Part shown: positions 5,094 through 30,335 of the stretch, piece after piece
Numbering within the stretch: the stretch's first letter is position 1
How the letters are laid out: each line of letters starts with the position of its first letter
DNA from: a bacterium
GTDB taxonomy: Bacteria > Patescibacteriota > Minisyncoccia > UBA6257 > JACOXY01
Assembly: GCA_030680955.1 (NCBI GenBank)
Contig: JAUXUB010000031.1
Span: forward strand, 1-32,895
DNA: 32,895 bases
Direction: 5' to 3'
The notes under the pieces: generated by a model
Seen by the model: only the letters and a program-made list of their open reading frames with translations
Database searches by the model: none
What the model was told of the DNA's origin: nothing
Position numbers and translations under genes: made by a program

Positions 5094-5126
5094 CCAATAT
5101 ATCGTAACCCGGTTACGATATATTGG
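5094..5126. repeat. Perfect 33-nt palindrome (16-bp arms, 1-nt centre)
   Basis: CCAATATATCGTAACC-C-GGTTACGATATATTGG; the 27-nt core recurs inverted at 17174..17200. Confidence 0.95.
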
Positions 5127-17173: not shown

Positions 17174-17200
17174 ATATATCGTAACCGGGTTACGATATAT
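17174..17200. repeat. 27-nt perfect palindrome, inverted copy of the 5094..5126 core
   Basis: ATATATCGTAACC-G-GGTTACGATATAT, exact reverse complement of the other copy's core. Confidence 0.95.
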
Positions 17201-22186: not shown

Positions 22187-22276
22187 CAATATTTCTAGTT
22201 CAATGAGTAAGCATTAAAAATCGTAAATCCTTTAATGATTTAATAGATCAGCCCTCAATAAGCCTTGGATAAATTT

Positions 22277-24448
22277 ATGCTTAAACTTACAACACCTCTT
22301 TCGGAAATAAGCGGTATTCCCGATAAGTTTTTGAAACGTCTAGCTAAACTCGGTATAAAAACAGCCAAGGATCTTTTGTGGCACTTCCCAACTAGATACG
22401 AAGATTTTTCAAAAATATATTCAATAGACGAACTTATTCCAGGCCAACAAGCAACTATTCAAGGTCAAATAGAAAAAGTTAGTATAAGACGAACGTGGAA
22501 GCGTCAAATGTTAATTGCAGAGGCACATATTGCAGACCAAACCGGAGTTATTCGTGCTGTCTGGTTTAATCAACCATATATTGCTAACACTTTGCGACGA
22601 GGAATGCTTGCAAACTTTGCCGGTAAAGTTCAAGAAGATGATGGCGAACTATATCTTTCAAGTCCAGCATACGAGCGCGTTCGCAATGCCGAACCAAATC
22701 ACACAGCTCGGTTAGTCCCGATTTATCCCGAGACAAAAGGATTAACATCAAAAGGTCTTAGATTTTTAATTAAACCTCTATTAAAACAAGCAGAGCAAAT
22801 AGCTGAATGGATTCCCGATTATATATTAGAATCGCAAAATATTCCCAAAATAAACGAAGCAATCGCCAATATTCATTTTCCTAACGAAATTGAAGATGCG
22901 CTTAGCGCCAAAAAAAGATTTGCATTTGAAGAACTTTTTTTAATGCAGCTTTTTAATTTAAAGGAAAGAGAAGCTCTTGCTAAAGAAAAAGCTCCAGTTT
23001 TTCAATTGACCATTGAAGAACTTAATTTAATAACAGAAAAATTACCTTTTGCATTAACGGGAGCTCAAAACAATGCGCTCACAGAAATATTAGCAGATCT
23101 TACAAAAGGCGCTCCGATGAATAGGCTCCTGCAAGGCGACGTGGGCTCTGGGAAAACAGTAATCGCGGCTATTGCCTCTCTTGCTGCGGCGAAGAACGGA
23201 TATCAAGCAGTATTTATGGCACCAACTGAAGTTTTAGCAGGACAACACTTCACTACACTGCAAAAACTTTTTGCTCCCCTTTCCCAAAAAGTTAGCCTAG
23301 CATTAATAACCGGAAGTGGCGCAAAAATGTTTTTTGAAAATAATTTATCTACTGACACAACAAAGAAAAATGCAAAACTGGCAGTTGAGCGAGGAGAAAT
23401 TAATATTGTAGTTGGCACACACACACTGATTCAAAAAGATATAAAATTTACAAATTTAGGCTTGGTGGTAATAGATGAACAACATAGATTTGGCGTAAGG
23501 CAACGAGCTGAACTTTTAACTCAAAGTAAAGAGGTGGGTTTTATCCCGCATCTGCTTTCAATGAGCGCGACACCAATACCAAGAACTTTAACCCTAACAA
23601 TCTTTGGAGATTTAGATCTCTCTATCATTAACGAAATGCCAACTGGCAGAAAACCAATTCTCACAAAAATCGTCTCCCCTTCAAATCGCGACAAAGCATA
23701 TGCATTTATAAGAGGTCAAGTAAAAAACGGAAAACAAGTATTTGTAATCTGCCCTCGTATTGAGACAACCGATGACTCACAACAAACAACTGACAACAAA
23801 AACGATGGAACACCAGAGTCGTCGGTTGTTGGTCGTAGGTTATTAGTTAACTCTTGGGCTGACGTTAAAAACGTAACCGAAGAATACGAAAAACTTTCTA
23901 AAAAAGTGTTTCCTGATCTTAGAGTAGAAATGCTCCATGGCAAGCTACCAGCAAAAGATAAAATTGAAGTTATGAGAAAATTTCAAAATCGCGAATTTGA
24001 TATTTTGGTTTCAACTTCCGTTATAGAAGTAGGCGTAGATGTACCCAACGCAACAATTATGATGATTGAGTCGGCCGACAGATTTGGACTTGCTCAACTT
24101 TATCAATTTAGAGGCCGGGTTGGTAGGGGCGAGCATCAATCTTTTTGTTTTCTTTTTACCGATTCATCATCTAAATCTACCGAAAATAGATTAAAAGCTT
24201 TAATTGAGGCAAAAAATGGATTTGAACTTGCAGAGATGGATCTAAAACTTCGTGGTCCAGGAGAATTTTTAGGTTCAAGCCAAACTGGAATGCCAGATAT
24301 AGCAATGCGTGCGCTTCAAAATATGGAATTAATAAAGGAAGGTAGAGCGGCAGCAGAAGCAGTACTTGCAAAAAGTTCAGACTTAAAAAAATATCCCTCA
24401 CTTGCCGCAAAAGTATCGGAATTCAAAGCACTAATCCATTTCGAGTAA
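22277..24448 (+). CDS. recG: ATP-dependent DNA helicase RecG
   Basis: LLQGDVGSGKTVIAA, VVIDEQHRFGVRQR, SMSATPIPRTL, QFRGRVGRGEHQS; ATG at 22277 preferred over TTG at 22265. Confidence 0.97.
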   Translation: MLKLTTPLSEISGIPDKFLKRLAKLGIKTAKDLLWHFPTRYEDFSKIYSIDELIPGQQATIQGQIEKVSIRRTWKRQMLIAEAHIADQTGVIRAVWFNQPYIANTLRRGMLANFAGKVQEDDGELYLSSPAYERVRNAEPNHTARLVPIYPETKGLTSKGLRFLIKPLLKQAEQIAEWIPDYILESQNIPKINEAIANIHFPNEIEDALSAKKRFAFEELFLMQLFNLKEREALAKEKAPVFQLTIEELNLITEKLPFALTGAQNNALTEILADLTKGAPMNRLLQGDVGSGKTVIAAIASLAAAKNGYQAVFMAPTEVLAGQHFTTLQKLFAPLSQKVSLALITGSGAKMFFENNLSTDTTKKNAKLAVERGEINIVVGTHTLIQKDIKFTNLGLVVIDEQHRFGVRQRAELLTQSKEVGFIPHLLSMSATPIPRTLTLTIFGDLDLSIINEMPTGRKPILTKIVSPSNRDKAYAFIRGQVKNGKQVFVICPRIETTDDSQQTTDNKNDGTPESSVVGRRLLVNSWADVKNVTEEYEKLSKKVFPDLRVEMLHGKLPAKDKIEVMRKFQNREFDILVSTSVIEVGVDVPNATIMMIESADRFGLAQLYQFRGRVGRGEHQSFCFLFTDSSSKSTENRLKALIEAKNGFELAEMDLKLRGPGEFLGSSQTGMPDIAMRALQNMELIKEGRAAAEAVLAKSSDLKKYPSLAAKVSEFKALIHFE

Positions 24449-24449
24449 T

Positions 24450-24480
24450 CAATATTCGGACTTGCGAAGTCCGAATATTG
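24450..24480. repeat. REP-like perfect palindrome, copy 1
   Basis: CAATATTCGGACTT-GCG-AAGTCCGAATATTG, starting 2 nt after the recG stop. Confidence 0.97.
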
Positions 24481-24498
24481 TGATAACTTATTTATATT

Positions 24499-25212
24499 AT
24501 GAGACCACAAATTGTACCAGGAAATATTTATCATATTTTAAATAGGGGTGTGGATAAACGTAAAATATTTCTAGATGATATGGATTATCTTAGATTTATT
24601 CACGATCTTTTTGAGTTTAATGATGAAAATCCCTCGCTAAGTAATAGCCACCTTTTCAAAGCAATAAAAACATTCGAACCCCAATATTCGGACTTGCGAA
24701 GTCCGAATATTAGTAGGGAACCAAGAAAACTATTAGTGGAAATTTTAGTTTTTTGTTTAATGCCTAATCATTATCATCTTATGGTCAGACCTTTAACTGA
24801 GAAGGGATTGGTAAAATTCATTAAAAAACTAAATATTGGTTACGCCAATTACTTTAATCAAAAATATGAAAGGAGTGGAGCATTATTCCAAGGACGATAT
24901 AAATCAATTGCAATTACAAACGATGCGCATTTTATACATCTTCCATACTATATCCATATGAATCCATTAGATCTATATATGCCAGAGTGGCGCAAGAGGG
25001 AACTTAAAGACTACAATAATGCATTTGCTTTTTTAGAAAAATATAGGTGGAGTAGTTTTCAGGATTATATTGGAAAAAAGAATTTCCCATCAATTACACA
25101 GAGAGATTTCTTATTAAAATTCTTTAATGGACCAGAAGAACATAAAAAATCAATACTTAAGTGGTTAAAAGATTTTGATCCTGAAGAAACAAGGGCCTTG
25201 ACACTCGAATAG
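24499..25212 (+). CDS. Y1 (HUH) transposase, RAYT/TnpA_REP-like
   Basis: YHILNRGVDKRKIFLDDMDYLRFI, FCLMPNHYHLMVRP, YANYFNQKYERSGALFQGRYKSI. Confidence 0.9.
   Translation: MRPQIVPGNIYHILNRGVDKRKIFLDDMDYLRFIHDLFEFNDENPSLSNSHLFKAIKTFEPQYSDLRSPNISREPRKLLVEILVFCLMPNHYHLMVRPLTEKGLVKFIKKLNIGYANYFNQKYERSGALFQGRYKSIAITNDAHFIHLPYYIHMNPLDLYMPEWRKRELKDYNNAFAFLEKYRWSSFQDYIGKKNFPSITQRDFLLKFFNGPEEHKKSILKWLKDFDPEETRALTLE
24683..24711. repeat. REP-like palindrome, copy 2, inside the transposase CDS
   Basis: AATATTCGGACTT-GCG-AAGTCCGAATATT, translated as QYSDLRSPNI. Confidence 0.97.
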
Positions 25213-25213
25213 G

Positions 25214-25244
25214 CAATATTCGGACTTGCGAAGTCCGAATATTG
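25214..25244. repeat. REP-like perfect palindrome, copy 3
   Basis: Identical 31 nt to copy 1, starting 1 nt after the transposase stop. Confidence 0.97.
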
Positions 25245-25302
25245 AAATAAGATAGAAAAGAGAATTGTGTAGATAAAAGCAAAAAGGAATTTTGCTTTAT
25301 GC

Positions 25303-25335
25303 TTTATATTCTGGTTTCGCAAACCCGAATATAAA
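25303..25335. repeat. Divergent REP-like palindrome, copy 4
   Basis: TTTATATTCTGGTTT-CGC-AAACCCGAATATAAA, 15-bp arms with 1 mismatch. Confidence 0.75.
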
Positions 25336-25359: not shown

Positions 25360-28300
25360 TTAACGGGGGCGGGGTTGTTTGAGTTGCTCAAGGATATTCA
25401 AGCGGTCTTTTAGGAAATTATTTTTTATTTTAAGTTCGCGCAATGATTCAATTGCGTGCATCAAGAAAGCGGTGCCATAATCAACTCGCTTGAAACCTTT
25501 ATCGTCAGTTGAAACCAGTTCTGGGAATACTTTTTCTACGTCTTGCGCAATTAAACCAAGATTTTGAGATTCACCTTTTAAATGTAATTGAGGATATTCA
25601 TTAGCGCGCCAATTGAAATATGTCGGCTTTAATTGAATGAGTTTATCTAAAGAGCCAGTAAGCGGAATAAGATTTTTCTTGAGGCGTAAATCAGAATTGC
25701 AAGTTCCAACTGGAGAGCCAGGCGTCATAGGAGTTGAGGTGGCACGAACACCATCAAATCTTTTAACGCAACCGAACGACCCAGAAGTACCAATGCGCAT
25801 ATCACCACTTATCATAAGTGCTTGACTAGGTTCAACATTTCCAATTCCAACGAAACCAGAGGCACTTAATGTCATTAGATTTGTGAAAGACGAAGACATA
25901 ACCCTAAGGTAATTGTTATTTGCTGGCCCACTACCGTAAAAATCAGCCACGGCAACAAAAGTGTTATCGCCATAAGCAACACCGCGCCAATCGTTATCAG
26001 CTGGATTAAGCCGGGATGTCCACGTAATTCCATCAGGCGAGGTCATAATACGATTACCTGAACCACCAGTACTTACGGCTACAAATAAACCACTGCCATA
26101 AGCGATTGCTTGCCAATTATTATCAGCCGCAGCGATTCGCATAGTCCATGTTCCAGTTCTTCCTGTAGGCGAAGTCATAACTGCATTTAAATCACCTACA
26201 GCAGTGTTCGCCACAGCCACAAAAGTGGTGGTGGCGACACCATTTATAATTGGAGTGCCGTAAGTTACGGCTTTCCACAATTTATCTAATGTAGGCGAGG
26301 CAGTTGCTTGCAATGCCCAAGTTATGCCATTGGGCGAAGTCATAACTCGTTGACCCAATCCATCTTTTGAAACGGCCACAAAAGTGGTGGTGGCGACACC
26401 ATTTATAATTGGAGTGCCGTAAGTGACAGATTGCCATGAATTGTCTGGGGTGGCGGCACCAACAAAAGACCAATCTTGACCATTATTAGTTGAATACATA
26501 GCATGTTTTGTGCCTCCAGTACTTGCTACAGCAACAAAAGTTGGAGTTTTAATAGTATTTATAATTGGTTCGCCATAAGTAACAGATTGCCAATTTGCGT
26601 CTCCATCAATCTCTATATCTGGGGATAGTGCCCAAATAATACCATCAAGCGAAGTCATAACACGGTCACCACGACCAAGCGTGCCATCATTTGCCACAGC
26701 CACAAAGACTCCATTGCCATATGTAACAGATTGCCATGGATGACTAGGGGGGGTGTCATTTGACTTGCGGGTGGTCCAAGCTATGCCATCGGGAGAGGTC
26801 ATAACTCTACTATTTGTTCCATCACTTGCAACGGCTACAAAAAGACCCTCACCATAAGTGACAGATTGCCATTTGTCATTATCCGGAGTAACTTGTTCTG
26901 CCCAGCTTCCATTAAAAACCGTCGCAGTCATTGCTTGATAACCAGAAGTATCACCAACAGCCACAAAAGTATTATTGGCATAAGTAACGCTATTCCAAGT
27001 ATTAATTGGAGACGTAGCCCTTGTTGTCCAAGTGATACCATCAGATGAGTACATAACACGCGTGGTAGGCAAATTAGAAGCTACCGCTACAAAACCACCA
27101 TTGCCGTAAACAACAGACTTCCAACTATGTGCAGTAGTCGTATTCCCGGGAAACCAACTATTACCATCAGTCGAATACATCGCCTGCCCACCAGTTTCCA
27201 CGGCTACAAAACGATTAAGAACACTACTAAAAGCGATAGAAGACCAAGCTTTTGATTTGGTATCAGCGTCAGTGCTAAGAGTCCAATTAGTTTTGCCATT
27301 AAGAGACCACATAGCGCGTCCATTAGCACCGCTAGATGACACAGCGACAAAGCGATCAGTGCCATAAGTAACAGACTCCCAATTGTAGTTTTCGGGAGAA
27401 ACTCTATTTGTCCATGGATCAGTTATTCCCCCATCCGATGAAGTCATTATGTTATTATTAGAAGTCGCACCAACAGCCACGAAGAGATCATTGCCATACG
27501 TTACGCTTTGCCAAGTGCCAGCGGTAGTAGTCGCGCGAGTTGTCCAAATTATGCCATCAGGAGAAGTCATAACACGATTATCAACACCGTTTGAAGATAC
27601 CGCTACAAAAAGACCATTTGGTGTTGCACCGCTTGAACCACTTTTACCAAAAGCTACAGATTTCCAATTATTATTAGCTGGAGTAACGCGATTTGTCCAG
27701 TTAACACCATCAGGAGAAGTCATAACATGATTAAAATTACCTGCGGAACTGCCATTTGCCACTGCTACGAAAAGACCATTACCATATGTTACAGAATTCC
27801 AAGAGCCATTATTGGGTGTAGTACGAGAAGTCCAATCATTGCCTATCGCATTATTGCCACCAAGTTGAAGATGTAGAGTGTTATCATTTTTAGCACTCAA
27901 AATCCAAAAAGGATTAGACTGACTCAAGGGCACCCCACTATAAAAGAGAGTCATCGCTGGAGTAGAACCATAAATTTGCAAACTGGTCTGCGGAGTTGTT
28001 GTACCAATTCCTACATTGCCACTGGCACTAATACTTAACCCTCCACTGCCTTTGGTAGACATAGAAATATAGCCATTGCTCCCCGCACCACCAGCAAGCA
28101 ACCGAATGCCTTTTATAATTGAAGTTGTACTAGACCCAATTTCAATTTGGTCTAATGCATTGACATTTAAAATTGGCTGGTTGCTGCCAGTAAAAAATCT
28201 TCCAAAAATCGGCTGGTTATTACTGTCTATAAATAATGAACCAGATTGAGGATCCCCACGAGTTACGGTACCAGAACCCCCAAAAATAGTTGCCCCTTGC

Positions 28301-30312
28301 GTAACGTGGAGCGCGGCTCCAGGAGTCGTTGTTCCAATTCCCAAAATTCCAGTGCTACTGCCCATTATACTCATACCACCTTGGAAGATATTATTGTGCG
28401 GAGTTATTTGGTAGTCAGCTTTGCCGGAAATCATAACACATCTACTCGGCCCACCACTTTTACAAGACGTAGCATTATTATATGAAGTCACAGCTACAAA
28501 AATACCATTGCCGTAGGTGACGGAATCCCAAGCATTGTCAGCAGCAGAATTGCGAAGAGTCCAATTGATACCATCTGACGAAGTCATAACACGATTCCCA
28601 GTGCCAGTAGGCGCTACAGCAACAAAAAGACCATTGCCGTAGGTGACGGAATTCCAAGCATTGTTGACTGGGGTAATACTAGAAATCCATGGGATAGTTC
28701 TGCCACCATCAGGTGAAGTCATTGCTTGATTAGGGCTACCATTTCCAGCAACAGCCACAAATAAACCATTGCCGTAGGTGACGGAATTCCATAAGATTTG
28801 AGGAGGGTTAGTTATTGGGAATGACCAATTAATACCATCCAAGGAATACATAACTCTTTGGGCGCCAGAAGAAGCCACAGCTACAAAGAGACCATTGCCG
28901 TAGATGATAGAAAACCATTGATTATTTGCGGGTGTATCACGAAGAGTCCAATTAATACCATCTGGTGAAGTCATAACACATTTATCTTGGCCAGCCATGC
29001 AAGTACCATAATCACTTTCCATTACAACCACAAACAAGCCATTGCCATAGGTTATATACCGCAAATAATTTAGGGCGGAATTGCGACGAGTCCAATTGAT
29101 ACCATCTGGTGAAGTCATAACTCCATTACTAACACCAATCCCAGCCACTGCAACAAATAAACCATTGCCATAGGTAACAGATCGCCATCCAAGATCTGCG
29201 GCAGAATCACGAGCAGTCCAATTTATGCCATCTGGTGAAGTCATGACGCGTTGCCCAGCAACAGCACCATTATCTGCCACAGCAACAAATAAACCATTGC
29301 CATAGGTAATCCCAATCCAATTTTTATCAGTTGAGGTTGAAAGAGTCCACTCCGTTCCCTTCGAAATAATATTTCCAACTACTTCTAATTTTTCACCAGG
29401 AATCCATGTAGTATTTGTCCCGATTAAAACGTTACCGCTTGTGCTTGCTATAGTTAAAATATCTTTTTCCAATCCCGTAGTACTCGCGAGTATCCGAAAA
29501 TTATTCTGAAAATTATCTAGAACGAAATACTTATTGCTAGAAGTTCCCAAAAGCTTTAGCTGGCCGCCTTCATCGGCAGAATTTATATTACCCAGGACCA
29601 AACGATCAGAAGAATCATCTACATCTGGCTGTACATCTCTTGCAGTACTTACTCCAATTCCCACAACACCAGAAAATCTTGCATTCCTCCATCTTAGAAG
29701 TGTAGTGGTAGAGCCAATGTTTTGCGTGTCGGAAACCAAAGGAACTAAATTATCATCAAAAACTGCCGCGGTAATTCTGTCTAGTGTCGTAACAAATTGT
29801 TTTGTTGATGAGCTTACGCCCGTAGCAGTAGGATTATAATAAAGCGTAAAACTTACTTGAACTGCATCTTTGGAAGGCGGATTAAAAATTCTTATAAATG
29901 AAACGGTACTGGAGACAACAGAAACTTTATCTGTTGTAAGGAGAGAAGTGGAAGCTGTACCTATTCCATATAAAGTTGAGGATCCTGTATCCATATACAT
30001 ATTTGTTCCAGAGGCATAGTAAACAACATAATCACGACTACTTGACGCGAACCTTAAAACTAATTTTGGAGATGGGGTGGAAGTGGAAATATCTATAATA
30101 CTTGAATCTCTAACATCGCGACTTATTCTCTCTAAAATAAATCTAGCTTGTTCAGAAACTTCTCGCGCTGAAGTACTTTCATTTTGAATTCTAAGAGTAG
30201 TAAGAAGTGTGCCAACTGCAAGGCCTGCCACAATTACAACAATGCCAGTATATAAAATAGCCTCTAATAATGTGAAACCGTTATTTATTTTGTTTAATTT
30301 TATGTAATTCAT
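25360..30312 (-). CDS. Giant surface protein: prepilin N-terminus, about 21 Asp-box repeats, tail-spike-like linkers, C-terminal peptidase S74 chaperone
   Basis: MNYIKLNKINNG/FTLLEAILYTGIVVIV leader; SVTYGNGLFVAVA...VMTSPDGINWT repeats; VGIGTTTP modules; SDLRLKKNLIPLTGSLDKLIQLKPTYFNWR...NLGLIAQDVEKVFPELV. Confidence 0.92.
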   Translation of the reverse strand: MNYIKLNKINNGFTLLEAILYTGIVVIVAGLAVGTLLTTLRIQNESTSAREVSEQARFILERISRDVRDSSIIDISTSTPSPKLVLRFASSSRDYVVYYASGTNMYMDTGSSTLYGIGTASTSLLTTDKVSVVSSTVSFIRIFNPPSKDAVQVSFTLYYNPTATGVSSSTKQFVTTLDRITAAVFDDNLVPLVSDTQNIGSTTTLLRWRNARFSGVVGIGVSTARDVQPDVDDSSDRLVLGNINSADEGGQLKLLGTSSNKYFVLDNFQNNFRILASTTGLEKDILTIASTSGNVLIGTNTTWIPGEKLEVVGNIISKGTEWTLSTSTDKNWIGITYGNGLFVAVADNGAVAGQRVMTSPDGINWTARDSAADLGWRSVTYGNGLFVAVAGIGVSNGVMTSPDGINWTRRNSALNYLRYITYGNGLFVVVMESDYGTCMAGQDKCVMTSPDGINWTLRDTPANNQWFSIIYGNGLFVAVASSGAQRVMYSLDGINWSFPITNPPQILWNSVTYGNGLFVAVAGNGSPNQAMTSPDGGRTIPWISSITPVNNAWNSVTYGNGLFVAVAPTGTGNRVMTSSDGINWTLRNSAADNAWDSVTYGNGIFVAVTSYNNATSCKSGGPSRCVMISGKADYQITPHNNIFQGGMSIMGSSTGILGIGTTTPGAALHVTQGATIFGGSGTVTRGDPQSGSLFIDSNNQPIFGRFFTGSNQPILNVNALDQIEIGSSTTSIIKGIRLLAGGAGSNGYISMSTKGSGGLSISASGNVGIGTTTPQTSLQIYGSTPAMTLFYSGVPLSQSNPFWILSAKNDNTLHLQLGGNNAIGNDWTSRTTPNNGSWNSVTYGNGLFVAVANGSSAGNFNHVMTSPDGVNWTNRVTPANNNWKSVAFGKSGSSGATPNGLFVAVSSNGVDNRVMTSPDGIIWTTRATTTAGTWQSVTYGNDLFVAVGATSNNNIMTSSDGGITDPWTNRVSPENYNWESVTYGTDRFVAVSSSGANGRAMWSLNGKTNWTLSTDADTKSKAWSSIAFSSVLNRFVAVETGGQAMYSTDGNSWFPGNTTTAHSWKSVVYGNGGFVAVASNLPTTRVMYSSDGITWTTRATSPINTWNSVTYANNTFVAVGDTSGYQAMTATVFNGSWAEQVTPDNDKWQSVTYGEGLFVAVASDGTNSRVMTSPDGIAWTTRKSNDTPPSHPWQSVTYGNGVFVAVANDGTLGRGDRVMTSLDGIIWALSPDIEIDGDANWQSVTYGEPIINTIKTPTFVAVASTGGTKHAMYSTNNGQDWSFVGAATPDNSWQSVTYGTPIINGVATTTFVAVSKDGLGQRVMTSPNGITWALQATASPTLDKLWKAVTYGTPIINGVATTTFVAVANTAVGDLNAVMTSPTGRTGTWTMRIAAADNNWQAIAYGSGLFVAVSTGGSGNRIMTSPDGITWTSRLNPADNDWRGVAYGDNTFVAVADFYGSGPANNNYLRVMSSSFTNLMTLSASGFVGIGNVEPSQALMISGDMRIGTSGSFGCVKRFDGVRATSTPMTPGSPVGTCNSDLRLKKNLIPLTGSLDKLIQLKPTYFNWRANEYPQLHLKGESQNLGLIAQDVEKVFPELVSTDDKGFKRVDYGTAFLMHAIESLRELKIKNNFLKDRLNILEQLKQPRPR

Positions 30313-30335
30313 ACTTGTTGCCACTAATTAATTTA

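Follow-up and report, generated by a model that had tools for sequence, protein, structure and literature searches.

In-frame copies of REP palindromes have been reported inside the genes of REP-associated tyrosine transposases (RAYTs) of subclass 2.4, where they lie between the HUH and Y motifs, and inside some genes of subclass 2.8; subclass 2.1 was described as having no REPs (Quentin et al. 2018, PMC6006769). In the Escherichia coli enzyme, TnpA-REP, it is the DNA-binding helix alpha3 that makes contact with the REP hairpin (PMC8266576). Open questions concern the way RAYTs select their REPs and the way REPs spread. The RAYTs considered here, from bacteria with tiny genomes, possess inner as well as outer copies of the hairpin that they are predicted to recognize, and across relatives the inner copy changes in concert with the outer copies. 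Each locus pairs a transposase with a matched site, within and across genomes, and an internal copy that is under palindrome and coding constraint at once would provide naturally recorded evidence of whether a transposase acts on the gene that encodes it.

The RAYT locus and its genome

The window, that is, the whole analyzed stretch of 32,895 nt, encompasses a RAYT gene downstream of recG (Table 1). The 29-mer AATATTCGGACTTGCGAAGTCCGAATATT occurs in three mismatch-free copies, as originally predicted, with 0 expected from 100 shuffles. In agreement with the same prediction, the first copy begins 2 nt past the recG stop codon and the second encodes QYSDLRSPNI within the RAYT ORF. The third copy adjoins the RAYT stop codon but begins 2 nt past it, the predicted distance of 1 nt being obtained when the outer C-G pair is counted, and the diverged copy is present 59 nt, rather than 58 nt, beyond the third. 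On the opposite strand, positions 25360-30324 encode a 1654-aa repeat protein with many MTSPDGINWT repeats and EPTP matches, and with a C-terminal Peptidase_S74 intramolecular chaperone domain.

Table 1. Positions of genes, protein motifs and palindrome copies at the RAYT locus (window coordinates).
Feature	Coordinates	Strand	Basis or remark
recG, upstream neighbor	22265..24448	+	NCBIfam RecG equivalogs above cut-off
REP-like palindrome copy 1, upstream	24451..24479	+	exact 29-mer
RAYT gene, 237 aa	24499..25212	+	ORF, Pfam/NCBIfam profiles, predicted fold
REP-like palindrome copy 2, internal (site 1), codons of QYSDLRSPNI, aa 62-71	24683..24711	+	exact 29-mer
HUH motif H91-Y92-H93	24769..24777	+	
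Helix 103-122 with I113 and N117, residues covarying with palindrome bases in the family	24805..24864	+	
Y motif YIHMNP (Y151)	24949..24966	+	
REP-like palindrome copy 3, downstream	25215..25243	+	exact 29-mer
Diverged palindrome copy	25303..25335	+	stem 12, loop 3; 3 mismatches to family pattern

The transposase is a RAYT, as predicted, on the strength of profile matches and a modeled fold. It matches Pfam Y1_Tnp (PF01797) above the cut-off and, more weakly, NCBIfam REP_Tyr_transpos (NF047646), at 38.5 bits against a cut-off of 80 bits that is an annotation threshold and not a biological feature. The best fold match of the predicted model (pLDDT 86) is 4er8, the structure of the E. coli RAYT bound to a REP hairpin (Z 15.8, rmsd 2.5, 156 of 165 residues aligned), and the protein combines this Y1 fold with the HUH motif (NHYH) and the single tyrosine in a Y---NP context (YIHMNP) that characterize RAYT/TnpA-REP. 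Sequence searches of solved structures yielded no meaningful match for the single protein and only weak IS200-type matches for the family profile. The pLDDT of the model falls below 50 in a single stretch, residues 49-71, which contains the palindrome-coded segment; the cognate palindrome is located, as predicted, in a linker ahead of the HUH motif, and it is probably tolerated there because the linker is disordered.

Two further RAYTs, with 55-59% identity to that of the window, are encoded in the same genome. Each of the three paralogues has a palindrome upstream, another inside the gene at the corresponding linker and another downstream, and the palindrome differs from one paralogue to the next. 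Across the whole 1.07 Mb genome, the exact 29-mer is found only at its RAYT locus; family members in which GGGC..GCCC replaces GGAC..GTCC occupy six other places, so that the local trio is unlike the dispersed copies in both arms and in all three of its members. Confinement to this locus, which had been named as evidence against the original prediction, consequently holds for the exact 29-mer and not for its family. The palindromes of the second (contig C15) and third (contig C34) RAYTs occur at 7 and 17 places genome-wide, 3 and 4 of these at their own loci, and the copies away from the own locus number 6 for the window RAYT and 4 and 13 for the other two. Two intergenic copies of the third RAYT's palindrome lie in the window itself, at 5097-5123 and 17174-17200, and the REPs of that RAYT are thus dispersed. 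The second RAYT's palindrome is also present in frame within asnB, miaA and an iscS-like gene. In asnB, it forms a clean 10-aa (30-nt) insertion that is missing from a same-family relative; in miaA and iscS, the palindrome coincides with aligned segments of unchanged length, as though it had replaced sequence already present. Two features of REPtrons, a gene flanked by cognate palindromes and cognate palindromes dispersed in the genome, are found here, the second with few or no instances found in other genomes. In three of these (loci L013, L018 and L019), no cognate palindrome was found away from the RAYT locus, which has 2-3 copies, so some members of the family have no visible dispersed REPs.

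Internal copies across the family

The survey of relatives comprised two sets. The first consists of 84 loci, namely 80 relatives picked by protein similarity alone, the three paralogues and one further relative; an internal stretch was taken to match its flanks at a score of at least 15, and the flanks of other loci served as the null. By this measure, the internal stretch matches the flanks of its own locus in 68 of the 84 loci, compared to 3% with the flanks of other loci. The second, disjoint set was drawn from other Patescibacteria genomes and comprises 69 loci, none of whose proteins exceeds 76% identity to the first set; it gave an own-flank match in 30 loci against 0 of 414 in the null. 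In the second set, four loops harbor internal copies: one ahead of the HUH motif, one immediately behind it, one past the Y motif and one at the C-terminus. The usual place is the homologous linker site (site 1), and sites 2, 3 and 4 require at least 7, 2 and 4 changes, respectively, on a tree built without those columns. The internal copy is not essential, being absent from 51 of the 151 loci on the tree. When flanks were defined without looking at the ORF, 104 loci had flank palindromes, and 76 of these also hold a cognate copy in the ORF. The density of cognate palindromes is 1.19/kb in the RAYT ORF, 0.19/kb at 130-400 nt and 0.03-0.07/kb beyond; measured against 0.07/kb for surrounding DNA, the ORF density is 17-fold higher. 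A one-off insertion, as the internal copy had been regarded, does not describe these data: in most relatives the copy occupies the homologous site, and the 2018 study (PMC6006769) describes related arrangements.

Two further proposals were dropped. Regional insertion was rejected on the distance profile of the copies, and the notion that a second internal site arises only upon loss of site 1 is not cleanly followed, 10 loci having site 1 plus another. At one locus, the downstream flank contains a match of about 98 nt to the 3' portion of the RAYT ORF, which suggests partial duplication. The same trio is seen at four loci in records labeled Elusimicrobia, Omnitrophota and Nanoarchaeota, reflecting either horizontal transfer or binning errors.

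The 29-nt borders are identical in upstream, internal and downstream copies, and so is the consensus, AATNTWWSGAVRTYNRAYBTCSWWANATT, across loci. The GT[AG]G foot of classical REPs was sought at the copies and found in 2 of 62 upstream, 3 of 54 downstream and 0 of 64 internal ones, against 9% at random. In a comparison of 67 loci, the median distance of the internal copy is 2/25 mismatches to the best flank of its own locus and 7/25 to the internal copy of the nearest relative (Wilcoxon p 2e-11); the copy is nearer to its own flank in 57 loci and to the relative's copy in 5, with 5 ties. Internal copies are paired as well as flank copies (10.4/12, compared to 6.6 in random ORF spans), and where both sides have changed, 26 are still paired and 3 unpaired. 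A single reading frame is common to all 62 site-1 copies, and the 5 site-2 copies use another. At 16 of the 64 loci compared, placing a flank copy in the internal frame would yield a stop codon, and the internal copy differs there; some of these stop-avoiding copies are altered in both arms with pairing kept, as in L019, where the flank reads TCTATGG..CCATAGA and the internal copy TATATGG..CCATATA.

Residue-base covariation and alternative explanations

Of the protein columns, residues 113 and 117, in the helix after HUH, show the highest mutual information with half-site bases. Residue 117 varies with pair 4 from the hairpin center (K:C, N:A, M:G) and residue 113 with pair 3 (T or G:G, M:A, I:T). 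Tree-independent pairs, counted over all branches of a quick tree of which the well-supported branches alone leave 1-2 pairs, were concordant versus discordant at 9.7 vs 1.0, 9.4 vs 1.0, 9.0 vs 0, 10.3 vs 0 and 7.8 vs 1.1; a mismatched control pairing showed no agreement (3.8 vs 2.8). The residue-117 rule is correct for 23 of the 35 held-out loci, compared to 10.2 after shuffling, and residue 113 is nearly invariant in that set (p 0.07). Internal copies fit the rule as well as the flanks do (101/108, compared to 93/102 and 85/90). The window RAYT follows the rule at I113, with T at pair 3, and departs from it at N117, where pair 4 has C in place of the A of the N:A rule. By the order of elements and the fold match, helix 103-122 is the likely counterpart of E. 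coli alpha3, and the covariation suggests that residues 113 and 117 read bases directly.

The cognate internal copy, its family-wide occurrence, the concerted divergence, the coding filter and the residue-base covariation, all established by sequence comparison, are probably best explained, on balance, by a REPtron-like module. The RAYT would recognize the 29-bp hairpin, cognate copies of which lie within its own gene and directly on either side of it, with residues 113 and 117 reading stem pairs 3 and 4 from the hairpin center. Local copies, the internal one included, would be kept alike by palindrome-to-palindrome copying, which we infer to be driven most likely by single-strand cleavage and joining by the RAYT itself; copies maintained in this manner would drift as a set, and the specificity of the RAYT would drift along. 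Coding constraint would filter the internal copy against in-frame stops, and this copy would make the RAYT gene a substrate of its own product. A self-limiting role, through self-targeting in cis, is suggested more tentatively; the original prediction named self-targeting and autoregulation as possible consequences. That the clade keeps its own site in coding sequence by selection as a cis brake, rewritten via the two-residue code each time the specificity shifts and regained in another loop when lost, seems doubtful.

The internal copy could instead be idle, REP copies landing by chance in tolerant loops of many genes and being homogenized afterwards. The in-frame palindromes in miaA, the iscS-like gene and asnB (with its clean 10-aa insertion), the four different loops occupied in RAYTs and the roughly one third of loci devoid of an internal copy are all compatible with such passengers, which we nevertheless rate as somewhat unlikely given the 17-fold excess in the RAYT ORF; furthermore, general scattering is no explanation in the several genomes where no copy was found outside the RAYT locus. 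Template switching during replication between nearby hairpins (quasipalindrome correction) could keep the copies alike with no involvement of the RAYT, the copies being short near-perfect hairpins a few hundred nucleotides apart and the local ones differing as a group from the dispersed ones (GGAC vs GGGC). By itself, however, this process gives no account of the concordant change of residues 113 and 117 with the bases, and we consider it unlikely as the explanation.

The palindrome might also act in RNA, the internal copy, along with that in the 5' UTR, controlling the translation or stability of the transposase mRNA as a hairpin. Internal 29-mers do form strong hairpins (median -13 kcal/mol), and a median of 20 nt separates the end of the upstream copy from the start codon, but the wobble asymmetry expected of selection on a coding-strand hairpin, an excess of G.T over A.C mismatches, was not observed (16 G.T vs 18 A.C), leaving no mRNA-strand-specific signal, the internal positions vary from ahead of the HUH motif to the C-terminus, and the palindrome sequence tracks the protein recognition residues, all of which renders this role improbable. 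Least credible, to the point of being nearly negligible, is that QYSDLRSPNI is merely a conserved protein segment. Its position and frame are homologous in most relatives, but the sequence differs between loci in step with the non-coding flank copies, and internal copies are found at other sites and frames as well; an ancestral conserved segment, the objection raised with the original prediction, is contradicted by internal copies that follow the non-coding flanks and not the peptides of relatives. The REPtron-like module remains our preferred reading, and it is open to experiment: the simple residue-base rule through a two-residue swap, and hairpin recognition and self-targeting likewise.

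Comparison with known systems

TnpA-REP subclass 2.4 (RAYT group 4) resembles the Patescibacteria family in its flanking REPs, in-frame copies within a variable peripheral region and a cognate REP family for each gene. The motifs differ, NH[IFV]H, WQ and YIxNNP in subclass 2.4 (PMC6006769, Table 1) versus NH[YF]H, FQ (or FE) and YIHxNP here, so that the family shares the gene-internal REPs of that subclass and not its motifs. The insertion, which lies between HUH and Y in subclass 2.4, mostly precedes HUH in the Patescibacteria, and the GT[AG]G-footed REPs of subclass 2.4, found mainly in Cyanobacteria and Bacteroidetes, contrast with palindromes without GT[AG]G. This foot marks canonical REPs, and subclasses 2.6 and 3 also lack it.

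By motif, and by motif only, the family resembles TnpA-Y1 subclass 2.1 (RAYT group 1; TIRYT), which has NH[YF]H, FQ, Y[IV]HLNP, SS after the Y motif and a length of about 238 aa; the family consensus reads NHYH, LFQGR, YIHLNP and RWSS. However, subclass 2.1 was reported without REP-like sequences, in contrast to the flanking and internal ones of the Patescibacteria family, where palindromes, with a consensus of their own, are present at 104 of the loci tested. E. coli TnpA-REP (subclass 2.2; REP/BIME) has the same fold, as indicated by the match to 4er8, but requires a GTAG foot and a stem bulge, whereas the palindromes here are near-perfect, devoid of GTAG and low in copy number. The TnpA of IS200/IS605 elements (IS608, ISDra2) is alike in its Y1 HUH fold and hairpin ends and differs in having Y---Q in place of Y---NP; unlike those elements, the paralogues in this genome are only 55-59% identical, with no sign of recent IS-like copies. 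A limited literature search found no published account of Patescibacteria RAYTs with REPs. On the sequence evidence, the apparent novelty comprises the presence in Patescibacteria of a family resembling subclass 2.1, a type of REP that lacks the GT[AG]G foot, the widespread retention of the internal copy, its concerted change with the flanks and a putative recognition code.
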